Assembly (NCBI GenBank): GCA_003597935.1
Contig: QZJT01000124.1
Location: 1-64,000 of the forward strand
Direction: 5' to 3'
DNA from: Phycisphaerales bacterium
Lineage (GTDB): Bacteria; Planctomycetota; Phycisphaerae; UBA1845
Length of the DNA stretch: 64,000 nucleotides
In this document: positions 8,656 through 50,002 of the stretch, piece after piece
Numbering within the stretch: position 1 is the stretch's first letter
Layout: every line of letters begins with the position of its first letter
Position numbers and translations under genes: made by a program
The notes under the pieces: model-generated
Databases searched by the model: none
Seen by the model: only the letters and a program-made list of their open reading frames with translations
Told to the model about the DNA's origin: nothing

Positions 8656-9456
8656 TCAGTCGTCGTCATCGCCGTCGTCGTCGTCTCCGTCGTCATCATC
8701 ACCGCCGCTGATGACGCGGCCGGTGGGCGTGACCAGGATCTCGCGGTTGCGGCCGTTGATCTTCCCCTCGATCTCATAGAGGACGATCATTTTCTTTTCC
8801 ACCACGACGGCGGCGCCGGCCCCGAACTGCCCGTCGATGGCGCTGCGCACGCCCGCCGGAGCGCCGGCGGCCGGGATGATCTGCTCGACTTCCAGCAGCG
8901 CCCCCTCGGCGGTCACGGCCGCCTCGTGGCTGACCCCATTGGCCTGCCATTCGGCTTCGTAGATGACCACGCCGCGCTCGACCTCGCGAGAGTAGTGCAG
9001 CACCGCGCCGTTTCCGGCCTGTTTCCGCAACACCGCCCGGGCGGCTTCGGGAACCTGGTCCTCGGGCACTTCGGCCTCATCGCCGTCATCGCCGTCATCG
9101 TCGTCGCCGTCGTCATCATCGCCGTCGTCGTCGCCCGCCAGGAGGGTCCCGTCTGCGGCCACGGCGATCTCGACTTCCCGCCCATTGACGAGCCACTCCG
9201 CCTCGTAGACTACCTGCCCGCCGCGCATCTCCTTTTCGATCTCGCGCACGGTGGCCCCGTTCGCCTCGCGCAGGATCGTGTCCCGGACGGCCTGCGGCAG
9301 GTCTTCCCACGCCACCCGCTCATCGGTGGGGTTCATCACCGCCCCGGCCAGCAACGCCGTCAGGCCCACCGCCCCGACCGTACAGAGCACGGCCTTCGTC
9401 CACGTCGTCATCCGCGTTTGCACCGCTCTCGTCCACGCTTTCACCCGAGTTTGCAT
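8656..9456 (-). CDS. Exported protein with three PepSY-like repeats joined by Asp/Gly-rich linkers
   Basis: VVYEAEWLVNGREVEIAVAADGTLL, VVIYEAEWQANGVSHEAAVTAEGALL, IVLYEIEGKINGRNREILVTPTGRVI; DDDGDDDDGDDDDGDDGD linker and C-terminus. Confidence 0.65.
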   Translation of the reverse strand: MQTRVKAWTRAVQTRMTTWTKAVLCTVGAVGLTALLAGAVMNPTDERVAWEDLPQAVRDTILREANGATVREIEKEMRGGQVVYEAEWLVNGREVEIAVAADGTLLAGDDDGDDDDGDDDDGDDGDEAEVPEDQVPEAARAVLRKQAGNGAVLHYSREVERGVVIYEAEWQANGVSHEAAVTAEGALLEVEQIIPAAGAPAGVRSAIDGQFGAGAAVVVEKKMIVLYEIEGKINGRNREILVTPTGRVISGGDDDDGDDDDGDDDD

Positions 9457-9820
9457 CTGAGTGTCTCCAATCAGGACTCGCTGGCGGCCGACGCCGACCG
9501 CGCCATGCTCCATCGTAGCGTGCAGACATGAGAGCACGATGAGAGGGTCCCACGCCGACGAACCGGGTTCAAGTGGGCAGTCGGCTCATCCCCCGGCCCC
9601 GGGCATTCATGTCGGGAGTTCTTCGCAACGGTCACCGGTTGCGAACCGGTGCCACAACCCGAGCCCCGGCATTCATGTCGGGCGGCACGGGGGGTAACGC
9701 CTCGACCCCAATCGCGTTCATCCGTGTTCATCTGCGCCCATCCGCGGCTCATCCGGAGCCTATTCCCTGCGGCTCATCTCCGGCTCATCCGCGGTTCATT
9801 CCCGGCGGCGGCGGAAGCGC

Positions 9821-10612
9821 TCACGCGCTCTGCCGCGGCTTGGACGCGATGATCGCCACCGCCTCCAGATGGGCCTGATACCTGCGGAAGACCCGCCGCA
9901 TGGCCAGCACCCGCCGGCGGGCTGCGCCGTCGCGCAGCGCGTTCCACGCGAACCGTGCCGCCCCCCGGACGCCTTCGTCGCGAATGAGCCGCCGCGGTTC
10001 CAGCAGGTGCATGGGCGCCTGCATTGTATGCGCGACGCGCAGTCCGCAGGATTCCAGCAGCTCGCGCCAGCCCGCCTCCGTAAGCGGCAGGACCGCGTGG
10101 TGAATCGCGTCGGTCAGCTCGCGGCGGACGCGCTCGGCCAGGTCCGGGTCGATGGTCTCGGGGGCGAGCACGATTTCGTGAATCCCGTAGCGGCCGCCGT
10201 CGCGCAGCAGGCGGGCTGCCTCCGCGACAACGTGCGATTTCACGCCCGGCGTCTGCATCGTCAGCATTGCCTCGCCGTACACGACGCTGGCACAGGCATC
10301 CGGCAGCCCGGTCGCCTGTGCCGCCCCGACCACGCAGCGCTGCGACGTGCCGTTCAGGCATCGCCGCACGCTCTCAGCGGCCGCCTCGTCGCGCTCGATG
10401 GCGACGTAGGAGCGGGGGCGGCGTTGAAGCGTCAGCCGGGCGGTCGCCCCCAGACCCGGCGCGAACTCGACCACGTCGTCATCCGGACCGATGTCGAGCC
10501 GGTCCAACATGCGGCCGGTCAGTTCGACTCCGCCCGGGCGCAGGACTTTCTTACCCAGCCGCGCCAGCACCCAATGGCCCGGCGCTTTTTCGATCCGGGT
10601 GGGTTGCTCCAT
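9821..10612 (-). CDS. Class I SAM-dependent methyltransferase
   Basis: DDVVEFAPGLGATARLTLQRRPRSYVAIERD SAM-binding motif I/II. Confidence 0.8.
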   Translation of the reverse strand: MEQPTRIEKAPGHWVLARLGKKVLRPGGVELTGRMLDRLDIGPDDDVVEFAPGLGATARLTLQRRPRSYVAIERDEAAAESVRRCLNGTSQRCVVGAAQATGLPDACASVVYGEAMLTMQTPGVKSHVVAEAARLLRDGGRYGIHEIVLAPETIDPDLAERVRRELTDAIHHAVLPLTEAGWRELLESCGLRVAHTMQAPMHLLEPRRLIRDEGVRGAARFAWNALRDGAARRRVLAMRRVFRRYQAHLEAVAIIASKPRQSA

Positions 10613-10772
10613 GACGTCGTCTCACACGATTCCTGAGAATCCGGTACCTTCCAACTCACCCGTCGGCGCTTCGCCGAAAAGCCGCCTGGCCCGGACTGAG
10701 TGCTTTCTGCATTCGTTATTCGTTATTCGACATTCGACATTCGACATTCCTGACGGGCGCAATCATGGGCGC

Positions 10773-13055
10773 TTATGCCGGGCTTGCGATCGCCTCGATC
10801 GCCGCGTCGCGGTCTTCCCTCAGCGACCAGCCGGTCTTCAGTCCCAGCACGAACCATCCCAGGGCGAGGGCGCCGCTGGCGAACACTGTGTCGCCGATGA
10901 CGCGCAGCCAGCGGAGCGTGTCCATCAGCGGCGTCTGCAGGAACTCGGCCGAGCGGGCATACCACAGCCCCTTCTCCACGCTCGCCCACGCCTGCATCAG
11001 GCCCACCGGCAGCAGGCTCAGCAGCACCATCAGCAAGAGGCCGACATTGATTGACCAGAAGGCGTAGGCCAACGCTCCAGTGCGCCAGACGCGTCGCGTG
11101 GCCAGCCCCTTGAGGCAGAACAGCATCAGGCCGACGCCCAACATGCCGTAGACGCCGAACAGCGCCGTGTGGCCGTGGACCGGCGTGGTGTTCAGACCCT
11201 GCATGTAGTACAGGGCGATGGGCGGATTGATGAAGAACCCGAACAGGCCGGCGCCCACCAGGTTCCAGAACGCCACCGCCACGAAGAAGTAGATCGGCCA
11301 CTTGTAGGCCGATACCCACGAGCGCACTCGGCTGAGCGTCAGGTTTTCGTATGCCTCGAATCCTATGAGCACCAGCGGCACCACCTCCAGCGCGCTGAAC
11401 GTCGCCCCCAGCGCCAGCACGGCCGTGGGCGTGCCCGTGAAATAAAGGTGATGGAACGTGCCGATGATCCCGCCGCTCAGGAAGATGGTGCTGGAGAAGA
11501 TCACCGCCGAGGTGGCCGTCGACGAGCGCAGCAGGCCCATCCGCGTGAACAGGAACGCGATGGCCACCGTGGCGAAGACCTCGAAGAACCCCTCGACCCA
11601 CAGGTGAACGACCCACCAGCGCCAGTACTCGATAACCGCCAGGTTAGTGCGCCGGCCCCACATGAGGCCCGCGCCGTAGAACAGCGCGATCGCAGTCGAG
11701 GCGATCAGGAACATGGCCAGCAGCGAGCGGTTGTCGCGCGCGTGGCGCAGGGCCGGCCACATCGCCCGCGCCATGAGGAAGAGCCACAGGAACAGGCCGA
11801 TGAAGAGGAAGATCTGCCAGAACCGTCCCAGGTCGACGTATTCCAGTCCCTGGTGGCCCAGCCACAAGTTGGTGATCAGGCCCAGTTTCTGCTGCACGCC
11901 CAGCCATTGGCCCGCCATCGAGCCGACCACGATGACCAGCAGACACACGAACAACACGTTGACGCCCAGCCGTTGGAGCTTCGGCTCATAGCCGGATACC
12001 GCCGGGGCCAGGAACAACCCCGTCGCCAGCCAGGCGGTGGCGATCCAGAAGATGCCCAGTTGGGTGTGCCAGGTGCGCGTGACCGCATACGGGAGGATCT
12101 CGGCCAGCGGAATCCCATAGAATCCGCTGCCCTCGACGCCGTAGTGGGCCGTGACCGCGCCGAGCCCGATCTGGGCCACGATCAGAGCCGCGACGACCCA
12201 GAAGTATTTCAGCGTGGCCCGCATGGACGGGGTAGGGTCGAGTGCCAGCAGCGGGTCCCGCTCCGGCGGGTCGCTCTCTTCTTCGGGCTTGGCCCGCTGC
12301 ACGGCGAAATACCACGTTAGCGCACCGATCCCGGCCAGCAGCATCACGAAGCTGACGACCGACCAGACGACGATGGAACCGGTGGGGCGATTGGCGATGA
12401 GGCTCTCGGCCGGCCAGTTCTGGGTGTAGGTGATGTCGGAGCCGGGGCGGTTGGTGGCGCAGGCCCACGAGGTCCAGAAAAAGAAAGCGTTGAGCATCGC
12501 CCGCCGCTCGGCCGACGGGATCGCGCCGCTCGGAATCGCGTACGCGTCGCGCAGGTCAACGAGCGCCGGGTCGTCGCTGAAGAGCGCATTGTAGTGTCCA
12601 CCCACCTCGGCGATGGCCTCGGCCCGCAGGCTCGACACCCGCAGGTCGCCGGTGGCCGCGTCGAACGTGTTGGTGCGCAGCTCGGCCTGAAGCCGGGCCT
12701 GCAGCGCCGCCTGCGTCTCCGATGGAAGGTCGTCGAAGGGTCGGGCGTGGTCCGTCTGCGCCCACTGGTCGAGCAGCCAGACAGCCTCCCGATGGAGCCA
12801 GTCGGCCGACCAGTCCGGGGCCACGTACGCGCCGTGACCCCAGATCGACCCGACCTCCTGCCCGCCCATCGACTGCCAGACGTGCCGCCCGCTTTCTATT
12901 TGTGCCCGCGTGAACAGCACCCGCCCGTCGTCGCTGACGACCCGATCCGGTATCGGCGGTGCCATTCTGTAAATCTCTACGCCATAATAGCTTAATACAG
13001 CGAAGGAGGCCGCGATGACGATCCCCAACCCCCACCAGAGCCGCTTGGCATTCAT
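10773..13055 (-). CDS. norB: Quinol-dependent nitric oxide reductase (qNor, cytochrome b subunit)
   Basis: GGQEVGSIWGHGAYVAPDWSADWLHREAVWLL; heme-copper oxidase-type TM helices with WWVVHLWVEGFFEVFATVAIAFLF, HHLYFTG, HGHTALFGVYGMLG. Confidence 0.93.
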   Translation of the reverse strand: MNAKRLWWGLGIVIAASFAVLSYYGVEIYRMAPPIPDRVVSDDGRVLFTRAQIESGRHVWQSMGGQEVGSIWGHGAYVAPDWSADWLHREAVWLLDQWAQTDHARPFDDLPSETQAALQARLQAELRTNTFDAATGDLRVSSLRAEAIAEVGGHYNALFSDDPALVDLRDAYAIPSGAIPSAERRAMLNAFFFWTSWACATNRPGSDITYTQNWPAESLIANRPTGSIVVWSVVSFVMLLAGIGALTWYFAVQRAKPEEESDPPERDPLLALDPTPSMRATLKYFWVVAALIVAQIGLGAVTAHYGVEGSGFYGIPLAEILPYAVTRTWHTQLGIFWIATAWLATGLFLAPAVSGYEPKLQRLGVNVLFVCLLVIVVGSMAGQWLGVQQKLGLITNLWLGHQGLEYVDLGRFWQIFLFIGLFLWLFLMARAMWPALRHARDNRSLLAMFLIASTAIALFYGAGLMWGRRTNLAVIEYWRWWVVHLWVEGFFEVFATVAIAFLFTRMGLLRSSTATSAVIFSSTIFLSGGIIGTFHHLYFTGTPTAVLALGATFSALEVVPLVLIGFEAYENLTLSRVRSWVSAYKWPIYFFVAVAFWNLVGAGLFGFFINPPIALYYMQGLNTTPVHGHTALFGVYGMLGVGLMLFCLKGLATRRVWRTGALAYAFWSINVGLLLMVLLSLLPVGLMQAWASVEKGLWYARSAEFLQTPLMDTLRWLRVIGDTVFASGALALGWFVLGLKTGWSLREDRDAAIEAIASPA

Positions 13056-15771: not shown

Positions 15772-17022
15772 ATGCGCAGCTCAGTGCCCACCTGGATGGC
15801 GATCGGAATGGTCATGACGTGGGGATGCTCATCGAACAGCGGCGGCCGTTTTCAGGATCCGGCGGCCGGGCATGAGCCGGAAGACGCGCTGGTCCGCAGC
15901 GCCCTGCGCGTCCACCAGTCGGCGATCGTGATCGACGGACACAACGACCTGCCCGGCGAGCTGCGCACGAAATCCGCGTCGGGCTTCGACGTCATCGACA
16001 TCGCGCAGCCCCAGCCCTCGCTGCACACGGACATTCCGCGCCTGCGGGCCGGCGGCGTAGGGGCGCAGTTCTGGTCGGCCTATGTGCCGGTGTCCACCAT
16101 CGAATCCGGCGGGGCGGCGCGTTTCGCCCTGGAGCAGATCGACCTCATCAAGCGGATGGCCGCGCGCTACCCGGATGCCTTCGAGATGGCGTACAGCGCC
16201 GCCGACGTCGAGCGGATCCACCGCCGCGGGCGGATCGCGTCGCTGATCGGCGTCGAAGGCGGTCACGCCATCGAGAACTCGCTGGGGGCGCTGCGGATGT
16301 TCTACGAGCTGGGGGCGCGCTACCTGACGCTGACGCACACGAAGTCGCTCGACTGGGCGGACTCGTGCAGCGACGAGCCGAAAAGCGGCGGGCTGTCGCC
16401 GTTCGGCGAGCAGGTGGTGCGCCAGATGAACCGGCTGGGCATGCTGGTGGATATTTCGCACGTGTCGGCGGACACCATGCGGGCGGTGCTGCGGGTGTCC
16501 GAGGCGCCGGTGATCGCGTCGCACTCGTCGGCATACGCGCTGGTGCCCCATCCGCGGAACGTGCCGGATGACGTGTTGACACTTATCGCCGGGAACGGAG
16601 GCGTGGTGATGGTGAACTTCTATCCGGTCTTCATCGCGGCGGAGGGGGGCGAGTTCTCGAAGGCCCGGACGGAGGCGCGGGCGTCGCTGCGGGCCCGGTA
16701 CGAGGACGAAGAGGCGTTCAAAGCCGCCTACGACGCCTGGCAGCGCAAGCACCCCGAGCCGGCCGCGACGATCGACACGGTGGTGGACCACATCGACCAT
16801 ATCGTGAAGGTGGCCGGGGTCGATCACGTCGGACTCGGATCGGATTTCGACGGCGTGCCGAGCCTGCCGGCGGGGCTGGAGGACGTATCGAAGTTCCCCG
16901 CCCTCACCATCGAACTGCTGCGGCGCGGCTACACGGACGCGGACGTCAGGAAGATCCTGGGCGGGAACCTGCTGCGGGCGCTGCGCGAGGCGGAGCGGGT
17001 CGCGGCGGAGTTGGAAGGTTGA
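15772..17022 (+). CDS. Membrane dipeptidase (peptidase family M19)
   Basis: IVIDGHNDLPGEL; LIGVEGGHAIENSLGALRMFYELGARYLTLTH; VDISHVSADTM; VDHVGLGSDFDGV. Confidence 0.95.
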   Translation: MRSSVPTWMAIGMVMTWGCSSNSGGRFQDPAAGHEPEDALVRSALRVHQSAIVIDGHNDLPGELRTKSASGFDVIDIAQPQPSLHTDIPRLRAGGVGAQFWSAYVPVSTIESGGAARFALEQIDLIKRMAARYPDAFEMAYSAADVERIHRRGRIASLIGVEGGHAIENSLGALRMFYELGARYLTLTHTKSLDWADSCSDEPKSGGLSPFGEQVVRQMNRLGMLVDISHVSADTMRAVLRVSEAPVIASHSSAYALVPHPRNVPDDVLTLIAGNGGVVMVNFYPVFIAAEGGEFSKARTEARASLRARYEDEEAFKAAYDAWQRKHPEPAATIDTVVDHIDHIVKVAGVDHVGLGSDFDGVPSLPAGLEDVSKFPALTIELLRRGYTDADVRKILGGNLLRALREAERVAAELEG

Positions 17023-17110
17023 AGGTCGAAGGTTGGCAGGTTGGGAGGTTGCAGGTTGGAAGGTTGAAGGTTGGGAGGTTGCAGGTTGGAGGTTGCAGGT
17101 TGCGGGTTAC
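17020..17110 (+). repeat. Low-complexity GGTTGNAGGTTG repeat at 3' end of dipeptidase gene
   Basis: ggttgaaggtcgaaggttggcaggttgggaggttgcaggttggaaggttg... Confidence 0.85.
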
Positions 17111-17443
17111 AGGGGCGGAAGGTCGGTTGGCCAAGGGTCGAACGTCGAAGGTTGAAGGCCGAGGGGTCGGGGGTGACGGGGGAGACGGGGCGGAAGCGCA
17201 CGGAACGCGAATGTGAATCCGCCACCGTTGCGTGGCGGGCGGGTAAAAGCTGGCGGCCCATCGGGCGGCTTCGATGGCGGTTCTGCGGCGGGGCGATTCG
17301 CTTTCCCGGGCTTTAAGGAACAGGCGCGTCGTCCCGCCTTTTGTTGCTCCCATAGCCGGACTTGGCAGGGTCCGGCGGCGCCGAGCGAGCGGGCGTCCGG
17401 CCCTTGAACTCGCCGCGGAGTTCGGCTACAGTTAGGGTGACGC

Positions 17444-18250
17444 ATGAGCGCTACGTCGAAGATCGAGTGGACCGACGCGACGTGGAATCCCGTGCGGGGT
17501 TGCACCAAGGTCAGCCCGGGCTGCGCCCATTGCTACGCGGAGACGTTTGCCGAGCGCTTTCGGGGTGTCCGCGGCCACCCGTACGAGCAGGGCTTCGATC
17601 TTCGTCTGGTGCCCGAAAAACTCGGCGAGCCGCTGCGCTGGACGAAGCCGCGGATGATCTTCGTCAATTCGATGAGCGACCTGTTTCACGAGGACGTGCC
17701 CGACGAGTACATCCTTGCGTGCGTCAGCGTGATGGAAGCGGCCGACTGGCACACTTATCAGGTGCTGACGAAGCGTTCGCACCGCCTGCGCGACCTCCTC
17801 AGGGGGACGTTGGGCCGCGCCGCGCAGCTCCGGCACGTCTGGTGGGGCGTCAGCGTCGAAAACCGCAGGCACGGCATTCCGCGCATCGAGCACCTGCGTT
17901 CCGCGCCGGCCGCCGTTCGATTCCTGTCCATCGAGCCCTTACTCGAGGACGTAGGGCGGCTGGACCTGCGGGAGATCGACTGGGTGATCGTGGGCGGCGA
18001 GAGCGGCGCCGAAGCGCGGCCGATGAAACCCGAGTGGGTCGCCAGCGTCCGCGACCAATGTCGCCGGGCTGGCGTGCGTTTCTTCTTCAAGCAATGGGGC
18101 GGCGTGCGCAAGTGCGACACGGGCCGGGAACTGGACGGACGCACGCATGACGAAATGCCGGAACTGCTTCCGGGCAGGGCGGTTTCCCTCACTGTACGGC
18201 AGCGGGCGATCGCCTCGCTGCCGGCCTTGGCGGCTGGAACCGCTAAATGA
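17444..18250 (+). CDS. DUF5131 / phage Gp37-Gp68 family protein (three-Cys-motif protein)
   Basis: MSATSKIEWTDATWNPVRGCTKVSPGCAHCYAETFAERFRG...FVNSMSDLFHEDVPDEYI...VIVGGESGAEARPMKPEWV. Confidence 0.93.
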   Translation: MSATSKIEWTDATWNPVRGCTKVSPGCAHCYAETFAERFRGVRGHPYEQGFDLRLVPEKLGEPLRWTKPRMIFVNSMSDLFHEDVPDEYILACVSVMEAADWHTYQVLTKRSHRLRDLLRGTLGRAAQLRHVWWGVSVENRRHGIPRIEHLRSAPAAVRFLSIEPLLEDVGRLDLREIDWVIVGGESGAEARPMKPEWVASVRDQCRRAGVRFFFKQWGGVRKCDTGRELDGRTHDEMPELLPGRAVSLTVRQRAIASLPALAAGTAK

Positions 18251-19428
18251 ACGAGTACGATCTCTACGCCGGGCGCGAGCAAACGCTTGTCAAGCACTAC
18301 ATCCTCGAGCACTATCTCGAACGGTTCGCCCACATCGTTGGAAGCACTTGGGATGATATCACGTACGTTGACTGCTTTGCCGGGCCGTGGAATGCGCGTT
18401 CAGACGAACACAGGGACAGTTCTTTCGCGCTGGCTCTGACACAGTTGAGGCAGGCGAGGAGGAATCCGGCGGATCTTAAGGCGGCGCGAAGTCGCCCACA
18501 ATTGGAACTGAGGTGCTTCTTTCTCGAGCGGGACCCCGCCGCATTTGCCAGATTGCGGGGTCTTGCCAGCCGTGTAGCCGATGCCGAGATTGAATTAAGA
18601 AACGCTACCTTGGAACAGTCCATCGACGACATCCTCGCATTCGTAAGAAAGCGTCAGCGGGATGCGTTTGCACTTGTCTTCCTCGACCCGACGGGATGGA
18701 CGGGTTTCGGACTCGACGTGATAGCGCCGCTGTTGAGGCACCAGCCCGGCGAGGTGCTGGTCAACTTCATGACAGGGTACACCGTGAGATTCGCCGAGCA
18801 GGCGGACGAGGCCATACGACGCAGCTTTGATCGTCTCTTCGGTCCGGTCGACTATCGCCGGCGTATTGCGCGACTGGCAGGGCAGGACCGAGAGGAAGAA
18901 CTCGTCCATTGCTATGCTGACGCCATCGGTTGGACCGGCAGCTTTGATTACGTTTGCCCGGCAATCGTGCTGCTCCCGGAGAAAAATCGTACGCATTTTC
19001 ACCTGTTGTACGCTACGCGTAACGCGCGGGGCGTGGAGGTGTTCAAACAGGTGGAGAAAAAGGCGATGGCGGCAATGGAGATGGCGCGGGCCGAAGCACG
19101 ACGGCGATCACGTATACGATCGAGCCGTCAGGAGGAGCTATTCGCGGCACAGCAACTCCATGATAGTGCGTATTATGAATCTTTGCGTGACCGGCATACC
19201 GGCGCAGCCCGAGCGCAGGTTAAAAGTATTCTCGTAGAAGGTCGCACGGTGGACTACGACGATGTCTGGGCGGCGGCGCTCTCACACCCGCTCGTCTGGA
19301 AAAGCGACGTCGACGCCTGGATTGACGAATGGAAGAAGGCCGGGCGCGTCGAGTTGACAGGTCTGAAGCCACGCGAGCGTGTTCCAAAGCTCGATGCCGG
19401 TCATCAGCTCCTGTGGCGTAACCCATGA
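18247..19428 (+). CDS. tcmP: Three-Cys-motif partner protein TcmP
   Basis: MNEYDLYAGREQTLVKHYILEHYLERFAHIV...ITYVDCFAGPWNA...FLDPTGWTGF; ATGA start/stop overlap with DUF5131 gene. Confidence 0.9.
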   Translation: MNEYDLYAGREQTLVKHYILEHYLERFAHIVGSTWDDITYVDCFAGPWNARSDEHRDSSFALALTQLRQARRNPADLKAARSRPQLELRCFFLERDPAAFARLRGLASRVADAEIELRNATLEQSIDDILAFVRKRQRDAFALVFLDPTGWTGFGLDVIAPLLRHQPGEVLVNFMTGYTVRFAEQADEAIRRSFDRLFGPVDYRRRIARLAGQDREEELVHCYADAIGWTGSFDYVCPAIVLLPEKNRTHFHLLYATRNARGVEVFKQVEKKAMAAMEMARAEARRRSRIRSSRQEELFAAQQLHDSAYYESLRDRHTGAARAQVKSILVEGRTVDYDDVWAAALSHPLVWKSDVDAWIDEWKKAGRVELTGLKPRERVPKLDAGHQLLWRNP

Positions 19429-19444
19429 GTGATGTATACGGCGG

Positions 19445-20131
19445 TTACCTCTCCGGGCCCTCCTCCAGCTTCATACAATACCCCGCCCCGATGACCGTGT
19501 GGATCAGCCGGCGGTCGAAGCCGCGGTCGATCTTCCGCCGCAACATGCTGACGTAGACGTCGATGACGTTGCTGTCGCTGTCGAAGTTCATGTCCCAGAC
19601 GTGCTCGCCGATCTGGGTGCGCGTCACCACGCGGCCGGGGTTGCGCATCAGGTATTCGAGCAGGGCGAATTCCTTGGCGGTCAGCTTGACGCCCTGTCCG
19701 GCCCGCGTCACCGTGCGGCGGACCAGGTCCAGCTCCACGTCGGCGAAGGTCAGCCGCGACGCCTCCCGCGCCTCGCCCCGTCTCAGCAGCGCCCGCAGCC
19801 GGGCGAGCAACTCGTCGAACTCGAACGGCTTGGTCAGATAGTCGTCGGCGCCGGCGTCCAGCCCCTGCACCTTGTCGCCGGTGCTCGACAGGGCGGTGAG
19901 CATCATGATCGGCGTGCTGACGCCGCGGCGGCGCAGGTTGCGGCAGACGCGCAGGCCGTCCTGGTCCGGCAGCATGACGTCCAGGACGATGGCGTCGTAC
20001 GGCCGGGACGCCGCCATCTCCTCGCCCTCGTGCCCCCCCCCGGCCGTGTCCACCGCGTAGCCGTTCTCGACCAGCCCCTGGCGGATCACGCCGGCCATCT
20101 TCGGATTGTCTTCGACGACGAGTATCCGCAC
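19445..20131 (-). CDS. OmpR family response regulator
   Basis: MRILVVEDNPKMAGVIRQGLVENGYAVD...IVLDVMLPDQDGLRVCRNL...DAGADDYLTKPFEFDELLARLRALLRR. Confidence 0.94.
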   Translation of the reverse strand: MRILVVEDNPKMAGVIRQGLVENGYAVDTAGGGHEGEEMAASRPYDAIVLDVMLPDQDGLRVCRNLRRRGVSTPIMMLTALSSTGDKVQGLDAGADDYLTKPFEFDELLARLRALLRRGEAREASRLTFADVELDLVRRTVTRAGQGVKLTAKEFALLEYLMRNPGRVVTRTQIGEHVWDMNFDSDSNVIDVYVSMLRRKIDRGFDRRLIHTVIGAGYCMKLEEGPER

Positions 20132-20144
20132 CCCTCAACCTCTC

Positions 20145-20272
20145 CACCTTCCAGCCTCCAACTTTCTAACCTTCCAACCTTCTAACTTTCCAACCTTCCA
20201 ACCTTCCAACCTTCCAACCTTCCAACTTTCCAACCTTCTAACCTTCCAACCTGCAACCTTCCAACCCTACCC
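20145..20272 (+). repeat. Low-complexity AACCTTCCAACC repeat
   Basis: ccttccaaccttccaaccttccaac... about 12 imperfect units between two genes. Confidence 0.9.
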
Positions 20273-46056: not shown

Positions 46057-46720
46057 GGCGGAGTGGGCGGAGGCGATCGCGTTCCCGGCATCCCGCGCTG
46101 CGCGTCGTACAGCGCCCGGAAGGCGACTACACTCTGAGCCCCCGCATTCATGCGGGGGTCCACCGGCTGGAAGCCGGTGCCACACACAGGACGCGTCGCG
46201 CGGGATGCCGGGGATGAGGAAAGTCCGAACTGGACAGGGCGCGGTGGTTGTTAACGGCAACCCGGCGTGAGCCGAGGGAAAGTGCCACAGAAAACACACC
46301 GCCTAAGCTGGAGACTAGAGACTGGAGAACTAGAGACTAGAAAGAACAACCTATCGAAGCACGATGCCCATCGCGGCGCAGGCGTGCCGCTCTTTCTAGT
46401 TTCTAGTTCTCCAGTCTCCAGTCTCTAGTCTCTAGCCGGTAAGGGTGAAAAGGTGCGGTAAGAGCGCACCGCGTCCGCCGTGAGGCGGATGGCAGGGTAA
46501 ACCCCACCGCCAGCAAGCCCAAATAGGCGGCAAGAGGCGGCCCGTCTCGATGGGGGCTTCGGCCCCTGAAAGCCGCGGGTAGGGTGCAAGAGCCGTCGGG
46601 CGACCGGCGGCCTCAGATGAATGATCGCCCGGGCGATCCGCAGGGCCGGCGCGCCTCCGCGCGTGACCGGCCCCCAAACAGATCGCCCGACAGAATTCGG
46701 CTTACCACGCCCACTCCGCC
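46057..46720 (+). ncRNA. rnpB: RNase P RNA, bacterial class A, with enlarged P3 and P12
   Basis: GGATGAGGAAAGTCCGAACTGGACAGGGCG, GGGAAAGTGCCACAGAAAACACACCGCC, GGTAAGGGTGAAAAGGTGCGGTAAGAGCGCACCG, GGCAGGGTAAACCCCACC..AGCAAGCCCAAATAGG, AGATGAATGATCGCCC, ACAGAATTCGGCTTA; P1 GGCGGAGTGGGCG / CGCCCACTCCGCC. Confidence 0.95.
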
Positions 46721-46943: not shown

Positions 46944-47050
46944 TGGAGGCGGGGGGAATTGAACCCCCGTCCCGCGGCGGATCCGGACAGGCTTCTACGT
47001 GCGTATTCGGTCGTTTAGTTCTCGGACTCGCCGGCACCGGCCGACAGGCT
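46944..47050 (-). pseudogene. Partial duplicate of tmRNA 3' end
   Basis: 107 nt, 4 mismatches and no indels relative to 49651-49757; lacks 5' half and tag. Confidence 0.9.
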
Positions 47051-47291
47051 GGACGCACGCCCCACGCTGCCGACGCGTAGCCAAACCGGCATGGATGTTC
47101 GTCCGCAGCTCGTGGCGGATGGCGGCGTTGCTTGCGGCACGCCCGCACGGCGCTACAATCGTCTTCGGTCACGGCTTTGCGTTCGGGACGAAGTGCCGCC
47201 GCCGAGCGGACCAGGGATGATACAAGGGGGGCGGTGAAACGTCCGCTCCAGCACGTGGCGTGACCGCACGGAGTTGATGGGGAGGTGCGCG

Positions 47292-47378
47292 ATGATCGAC
47301 AATTTCAATGAACTCCTATTCCAGACGCTGCTGTTTATGGCCGTCTTGACGGTGCTGGTGGCGTTCGCCCTCGGGTAA
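47292..47378 (+). CDS. Possible 28-aa membrane microprotein
   Basis: MIDNFNELLFQTLLFMAVLTVLVAFALG-stop preceded by GGGGAGGTGCGCG Shine-Dalgarno. Confidence 0.5.
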   Translation: MIDNFNELLFQTLLFMAVLTVLVAFALG

Positions 47379-47753
47379 CAACTACATCTGGTGGGCAGTG
47401 CAACCGAGCGGACCGCCCGCGCTGGCCACGCCGCCCGCCGGGTTATGGCTCGGTGGCGGCGGTTGCATCTGGGCAAACCACACTCGCCGCTCCGCGACGA
47501 GTGGCTTGCGGCAACGACCCCTCCGCCCCCGCTTCGGACTTCACGCCGGACGGTCTCATCGTCAAGTCGAGTCAGGCGCGCTGGACTGCTGGACCCCGCC
47601 TCGGCGACAGCGACTTGGCGCGGATTGGGACAATCCGCGAGGCCAAAGGGGGACGAGACAGCGGGCTCATTCCGTGACTTGCTCTTGTGGAGCAAGGCGG
47701 AGGCGAAGCGAAGCAACGGCAGCGACTAAGAATCGCTGCGATTCTCGCCACGG

Positions 47754-49429: not shown

Positions 49430-49650
49430 TTTTGCCTCGGTGGCAACGGCCGAGGGGGGCGGCGCGGAACCGCGAGGGTGGACAGCCGGCGCAGCGGGCG
49501 GTGGATGGCGAGCCGCGCGGCCTCAGCCCGCGCGGAGTTCCCGCGTCAGCGATGCCCCGCTCCTGTAGCGGTCTCTCGCCATGCCGCCAGGCTGGAGCCG
49601 GGCGGTCCCAGGGGCGAGCCGCCGCTTGTGTCACGCCCGCGTCGCGCGAA

Positions 49651-50002
49651 TGGAGGCGGGGGGAATTGAACCCCCGTCCCGCGGTGGATCCGGACAGGCT
49701 TCTACGTGTGTATTCGGTCGTTTGTTTCTCGGACTCGCCGGCGCCGGCCGACAGGCTTCGGGTCGTCCCAGCCCGACTGTGTCTTGCGGCCGCGCGGTCA
49801 GGCGTCGCGCGGCCGCCAGCCCGCTGTCGTCGTCCTGCGGAATAGCGGGCGTCATCCGCAGGACGGGCTGACCTTAGTTAGGCAGCCATGGCGAACTGAG
49901 TGTTGCCATTTAAGGTTTCCGCCGGAGGATTAACGAGGCCAACCGACGATCCTCGACACGCAACCTGCCTTTCACGTCACCCGGTCGAATCCGATCGCCC
50001 CC
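49651..50002 (-). ncRNA. ssrA: Transfer-messenger RNA; tag ends ...NGNTQFAMAA
   Basis: Minus strand 5' GGGGGCGATCGGATTCGACCGGG and 3' GGACGGGGGTTCAATTCCCCCCGCCTCCA; acceptor stem GGGGGCG/CGCCTCC; tag ORF GGC AAC ACT CAG TTC GCC ATG GCT GCC TAA. Confidence 0.95.

Follow-up and report, generated by a model that had tools for sequence, protein, structure and literature searches.

The gene pair described here is already known and is not a new kind: it is named by NCBIfam and listed by PADLOC. The NCBIfam family TIGR04474 is termed TcmP, and its name, which carries no function, itself states the pairing with a three-Cys-motif protein. PADLOC 2.0.0 holds both gene families as PDC-M30 and PDC-M41, so that the pair already has candidate status there. 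These entries belong to a class of non-validated "guilt-by-embedding" defence candidates, and PDC-M30 is reported for 32 of 100 P. aeruginosa strains; the phage-resistant share of these carriers was 68.8% (PMC10855318). The text consulted there holds nothing on a radical-SAM relation, a methyltransferase fold or an exchange of the TcmP gene. The TcmP gene SMa2243 and the Hna defence gene SMa2245 of Sinorhizobium meliloti are adjacent in an expression table (PMC12445080); judging from their numbering, the two are probably genome neighbours. A literature search returned nothing on what DUF5131 or TcmP does.

Two well-known enzyme systems serve for comparison. Radical-SAM enzymes hold their cluster after the first strand of the barrel. 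In type I restriction-modification, a constant enzyme is combined with an exchangeable specificity gene, HsdS.

The window, a stretch of 64,000 nucleotides from a contig of a Phycisphaerales bacterium (QZJT01000124.1), contains the two genes, here called D and T, in the following arrangement.

16-17 kb: M19 dipeptidase, neighbour of the pair
17444-18250, plus strand: D, DUF5131 (Gp37/Gp68) three-Cys protein, radical-SAM-like partial TIM barrel (open reading frame of 268 aa, ATG start; PF07505)
18247-19428, plus strand: T, three-Cys-motif partner TcmP, predicted class-I SAM methyltransferase fold with a C-terminal winged helix (open reading frame of 393 aa, ATG start; TIGR04474)
19448-20131, minus strand: response regulator, between T and the dehydratase
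20.3-21.5 kb: PALP-type threonine dehydratase, neighbour of the pair

The stop codon of D and the start codon of T share the bases ATGA (18247-18250, plus strand), and translation of the two genes is possibly coupled via this overlap. The same 4-base overlap (spacing of -4) is seen again in the loci L013, L018 and L163 and in others. The preliminary description of this DNA had reported the overlapping pair, the motif GCTKVSPGCAHCYAE, the assignment to DUF5131 and TcmP and the lack of mobile genes nearby, and all of this was confirmed. The motif is present in D as quoted. In profile searches, D reaches 339.9 bits against PF07505 (cut-off 28.9) and T 142.5 bits against TIGR04474 (cut-off 53), and T lies beside a three-Cys-motif protein as its family name states. 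A Pfam search with the T of the window gave no hit. Neither an integrase nor a transposase was seen next to the pair in the window, and no restriction-modification gene adjoins it. The operon also lacks a cognate nuclease, the neighbours being the dipeptidase, the response regulator and the dehydratase; a restriction-modification system with its own nuclease was therefore rejected as an interpretation.

The GC3 value of T (0.656 for 18247-19425) is lower than that of D (0.828) and the gene mean (0.849). It was rejected as proof of recent transfer because T lies below D in 43 of 54 and in 46 of 66 pairs elsewhere. Two arrays of a GGTTGGAAGGTTG-type repeat of 7-8 bases, in inverted orientation, surround the segment of D, T and the response regulator (17010-17113 and 20136-20266). 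The arrays were not accepted as ends of a module, since the pattern is dispersed and was found 54 times genome-wide.

The AF2 model of D (alignment of 90 sequences, pLDDT 93.8, pTM 0.91) displays a partial TIM barrel with a Cys loop after strand 1 and matches radical-SAM folds. Ranks 1-5 of the Foldseek search against the PDB are all spore photoproduct lyase, with modest scores (E 7e-4 to 2.8e-3, probability 0.97-0.99, TM about 0.4). The conserved motifs of D are given below with their occurrence among the 90 homologues.

17501-17533, plus strand: three-Cys motif C20-X6-C27-X2-C30 in the loop after the first strand, proposed [4Fe-4S] site; all three Cys in 90/90
17765-17776, plus strand: LTKR motif, residues 108-111, after strand 3; L108, T109 and K110 in 90/90, R111 in 89/90
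17993-18007, plus strand: GGESG motif, residues 184-188, after strand 6; each residue from G184 to G188 in 90/90

The exact spacing CX6CX2C is found in 87 of the 90 homologues; the other three have one extra Cys. D thus resembles spore photoproduct lyase and other radical-SAM enzymes in its fold and in the position of the Cys loop, but the canonical CX3CX2C motif of the superfamily is absent from D, and the PF04055 (Radical_SAM) profile does not match it at E values up to 1. Therefore D is described here as working like a radical-SAM enzyme and not as a demonstrated one. The sequence of D alone had no meaningful match among PDB sequences. Two bridging radical-SAM proteins, encoded at L041:1369-2253 and L042:1132-2013, match both PF04055 (3.6e-14 and 6.1e-13) and PF07505 (8e-6 and 4e-4). 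L041 has the canonical CX3CX2C spacing (GCGHGCKYCYA) aligned with GCTKVSPGCKHCYA of the D family, so the difference in spacing reads as an insertion of three residues. LTKS of L041 is found at the place that corresponds to LTKR of D, the LTK being common to both, and LTKR is possibly a SAM contact. D is furthermore matched by TIGR04471 (radical SAM mobile pair protein A; E 4e-21, residues 15-217), falling below the cut-off of that family with 75.5 bits versus 355. From sequence and model, D is apparently a radical-SAM-like enzyme.

For T, the AF2 model (55 sequences, pLDDT 92.7, pTM 0.92) has a Rossmann-like fold. The top six Foldseek matches include 2oo3, RlmJ (7p9i; 23S rRNA m6A2030 methyltransferase) and Trm1 (3axs), again with modest scores (best E 4e-5, TM 0.3-0.4). 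A profile of T compared with PDB sequences yielded RlmJ (E 6.5e-4) as the only family under E 1e-3; the T sequence alone had no meaningful match there. The following features were located, with their occurrence in 55 sequences.

18292-18294, plus strand: K16 in the first helix, proposed counterpart of the catalytic K18 of RlmJ; 55/55
18370-18384, plus strand: motif I, D42-x-F44-A45-G46, predicted SAM-binding loop; D42 in 54/55, F44 in 52/55, G46 in 55/55
18685-18696, plus strand: motif IV, DPTG, D147-G150, at the position of the catalytic DPPY of m6A enzymes; D147 in 55/55, P148 in 49/55, G150 in 50/55
19159-19425, plus strand: C-terminal winged-helix region, residues about 305-393; helix-helix-helix-strand-strand in the model

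The Rossmann-like fold, motif I (DxFAGxG) and the acidic motif IV are those of class-I SAM methyltransferases, and the modelled T is a class-I methyltransferase fold nearest to RlmJ and Trm1. K16, G46 and D147 are strictly conserved. Trm1 probably has the motif DPFG, and the commonest forms of motif IV in T are DPYG, DPFG and DPTG, with DPxG in most of the 55 sequences. In contrast, the [DN]PP[YF] form of RlmJ and the m6A enzymes is absent from the T of the window, and DPPY occurs in 0 of 55; therefore T might bind SAM without methylating. T further differs from RlmJ and Trm1 by its added winged helix, its hypervariability and its mobility. At the place of the winged helix, PF22560 (GMT-wHTH) matches the T relatives of L003 (8e-15) and L077 (5.5e-5), and 78 of 113 T are at least 330 aa long, which is enough for this domain. 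2oo3 is a homologue of RlmJ, in which K18 and D164 are essential and the K18A exchange abolishes function (PMC3814359). D147 of T is the counterpart of D164, and K16 probably corresponds to K18, judged from its position in the first helix and not from the profile alignment.

Of 40 relatives, 14 have T and 22-24 have D. Every TcmP match in these 14 adjoins a D; T is accessory and patchy, and always beside D where it was searched alone. The best 80 D loci in GTDB genomes come from Planctomycetota, Verrucomicrobiota, Acidobacteriota, Myxococcota, Proteobacteria and other phyla. T is adjacent in 66 of them, in the order D-T (47 loci) or T-D (17), convergent (1) or divergent (1). These loci were retrieved by D, T being too divergent to serve as query; their gene calls are mechanical, and the peptide-pattern searches favour near relatives of the D of the window. 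The closest relative, L163 from a planctomycete MAG, has a D of 82% and a T of 70% identity and shares only positions 17431-19081 with the window; the flanking open reading frames are unmatched.

D occurs in no fewer than 595 stretches of viral contigs; phage records with D number 161, most of them from Mycobacterium and Gordonia phages. T also occurs in phages and, in addition, in 26 plasmid records, haloarchaeal ones included. Among 80 viral contigs, 38 showed no T next to D. This number and the 14 of 80 genome loci without T include truncations, because some loci lie at the end of a contig. Peptide patterns found no close relatives of T in viral contigs, because T is too divergent, and a full-sensitivity search for a divergent T in the loci without T gave no convincing hit. 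A distant DNA search found no D in E. coli genomes. A comparison via the neighbouring genes revealed no syntenic empty site, the dipeptidase lying elsewhere in the relatives and the dehydratase being present in only three. The accessory and mobile nature of the pair and its phage link, both proposed in the preliminary description, are therefore upheld by these counts and by L163. That description had also said that universal conservation in core loci and a housekeeping function would speak against it; neither was observed.

Across the set, D proteins are about 50-70% identical and T proteins about 20%. The Spearman coefficient between D identity and T identity is 0.15 (1431 pairs) and 0.13 in a second set; locus pairs are not independent, so no weight is placed on the p-values. 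By sequence comparison, then, D identity does not predict T identity, and the two appear decoupled. In 93 locus pairs D is at least 75% identical, and in 45 of these T belongs to different 35% clusters. L057 and L058 have 87% identical D and 15% identical T; in L112 and L123 the values are 93% and 24%. T identities near 20% are noisy and depend on the alignment, and the exchange of T rests on DNA collinearity. Collinearity between L057 and L058 runs to the final codons of D (78.5%) and resumes beyond T (82%), and their T genes gave only a marginal match in direct comparison (E 0.017); collinearity on both flanks of T extends to L060. Seven acidobacterial loci (L174, L178, L179, L183, L197, L202 and L210) have the order pccB-T-D, pccB being the propionyl-CoA carboxylase beta gene. 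In these loci pccB and D are constant and T differs, with break points within about 100 bases of the ends of T in several pairs. We read this as replacement of T at the level of the gene, as a cassette, with D staying constant.

A constant D next to T of 15-20% identity is hard to square with a tight specific interface of the two proteins. The low correlation suggests instead that D acts via the same chemistry throughout, a mark or donor shared by all. In its evolutionary pattern the pair resembles HsdS, but T is a whole methyltransferase fold and not a target-recognition subunit, and the pair has no dedicated nuclease. Two T genes lie behind one D in L222 and L226. In L128, a P. aeruginosa plasmid, the order is T-D-T (8932-12494); the D frame is split in two, both T are intact, and the split D may be a pseudogene or a sequencing error.

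In the PADLOC models, D matches M41B (5.9e-104) and M30B (1e-103) with about 344 bits. T matches M30A (8.2e-11) and M41A (9.9e-10) weakly, with 36-40 bits, so both components A and B of PDC-M30 and PDC-M41 are matched, and the T of the window is far from the PADLOC models. Among the genes near the pair in relatives are restriction-modification genes of types I, IIG and III, a helicase of the DrmD/Snf2 type and one match to PD-T4-3, versus mainly housekeeping look-alikes (e.g. UvrD, RtcR) around a dipeptidase as control; both sets are small, with 103 and 105 proteins, respectively, and members were listed for part of the families. In L057, a small gene comes after the pair, as do hsdS and hsdM, encoded on the opposite strand. 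These were named by sequence and place (hsdS) and by a PDB match (hsdM), and thus the "viral" contig L057 carries restriction-modification genes. T of Gordonia phage Easley has the immunity repressor 3 bases away and the integrase nearby. The proposed defence association agrees with the candidate listing and with the restriction-modification genes beside several relatives, but stays unproven, and the literature searched gave no experiment.

D of phage contigs that carry D alone is longer (median 310 versus 253 aa). The frames of D and a methyltransferase overlap in L098 and in Gordonia phage Bakery, and the two genes are close by in prophiT36-2a. Near or next to the stand-alone phage D of L098, L109, L111, L113, L121, L130 and L131, a C5 cytosine DNA methyltransferase of unusual length (520-650 aa) is encoded.

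With a probability of roughly 45%, D and T constitute a two-enzyme, SAM-dependent module that modifies nucleic acids as part of host conflict with mobile elements. According to this reading, the radical-SAM-like barrel of D, with its invariant CX6CX2C site, would hold a [4Fe-4S] cluster and cleave SAM. T, with the predicted class-I methyltransferase fold, the invariant Lys-Asp pair at the catalytic position and the winged helix, would bind the target base in DNA or RNA and alkylate an exocyclic amine. D would supply or complete the chemistry common to all targets, either by acting on the base marked by T or by making a SAM-derived donor that T transfers. Diversification of T would shift the target, and T would be the specificity gene. 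The outcome is the least certain part: host defence, abortive modification or protection of the element. The reading is favoured by the folds and motifs, the pairing of D and T, their decoupling and the cassette exchange of T, the two T per D, the restriction-modification neighbours in relatives, hsdS and hsdM beside the pair of L057, phage Easley and the PADLOC candidacy. Against it count the lack of a PF04055 match and the non-canonical Cys spacing of D, the modest Foldseek scores of both proteins, the missing DPPY of T, the difficulty of picturing a tight specific interface between a constant D and such divergent T, the lack of an adjoining restriction-modification or mobile gene in the window and the viral contigs with D and no detected T. 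A bolder version is considered rather improbable: in a modular immune or counter-immune system, the constant radical-SAM enzyme would give a new base modification or SAM-derived donor, and T, drawn from a large set of exchangeable proteins with methyltransferase fold, would pick the target, so that the swap of one gene changes specificity. We know of no such radical-SAM nucleic-acid modification in conflict systems.

The constant occurrence of T beside D, together with the frequent occurrence of D alone (the 38 of 80 viral contigs included), is also what a toxin-antidote or abortive module would produce. Here T would put a harmful modification on cellular or phage RNA or DNA, D would remove or repair it, and phages with D alone would use it as counter-defence. 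Among solved structures, the closest fold to that of D belongs to a radical-SAM enzyme of DNA repair, and a single conserved antidote could suffice for many T if the chemistry of the lesion were identical. However, the plasmid L128 keeps two T with a split D frame, unless this is a sequencing error, and the ordinary DNA methyltransferases that adjoin some stand-alone phage D fit a modification role equally well. We regard a toxin-antidote function as unlikely. The carriage of the pair by phages, prophages and conjugative or mobilizable plasmids would agree with anti-restriction, in which mobile elements modify their own DNA via D and T to escape host restriction and the diversity of T tracks restriction specificities. 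A DNA methyltransferase gene (C5, N6/N4 or Dam-type) lies within 4 kb of D in 11 of 38 viral contigs with D alone and in 4 of 42 with T (Fisher p 0.043), a co-occurrence that is weak, partly due to one actinophage lineage and suggestive only. Anti-restriction is doubtful: the pair is also frequent at constant positions in chromosomes (pccB-T-D) where no mobile element is seen, and RlmJ and Trm1, the fold relatives of T, act on RNA.

These same relatives, both RNA methyltransferases among the nearest folds to T, are the argument for a housekeeping type of tRNA or rRNA modification that is patchy by chance. But the module is missing from most relatives, T is hypervariable and swapped, some loci have two T per D, and the genes are found on phages and plasmids and beside restriction-modification loci. 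Because of the patchy distribution and the exchange of T, a housekeeping role is thought very improbable.

The conflict module of two SAM-dependent enzymes remains the preferred reading. The radical-SAM likeness of D, the methyltransferase fold of T, the patchiness of T beside D and the swapping of T at a constant D are new here, and the likeness, the fold and the swapping go beyond the preliminary description. The pair is widespread, in many bacterial phyla, in phages and in plasmids including haloarchaeal ones, and its families are annotated as of unknown function. The testable idea gained is that of a radical-SAM-like enzyme of fixed chemistry with a swappable partner of methyltransferase fold. 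If true, this would mean a new modification chemistry in phage-host conflict, the loci that differ only in T would be a natural experiment ready for use, and the carriage of D alone by phages could be explained.

Elsewhere in the window, an RNase P RNA is present at 46189-46626 on the plus strand (RF00010, 212.8 bits). Its interior contains short tandem repeats at 46308-46338 and 46395-46435. ARAGORN called a tmRNA at 46944-47438 on the minus strand that lacks Rfam support; the tmRNA at 49648-50002 is supported by Rfam.
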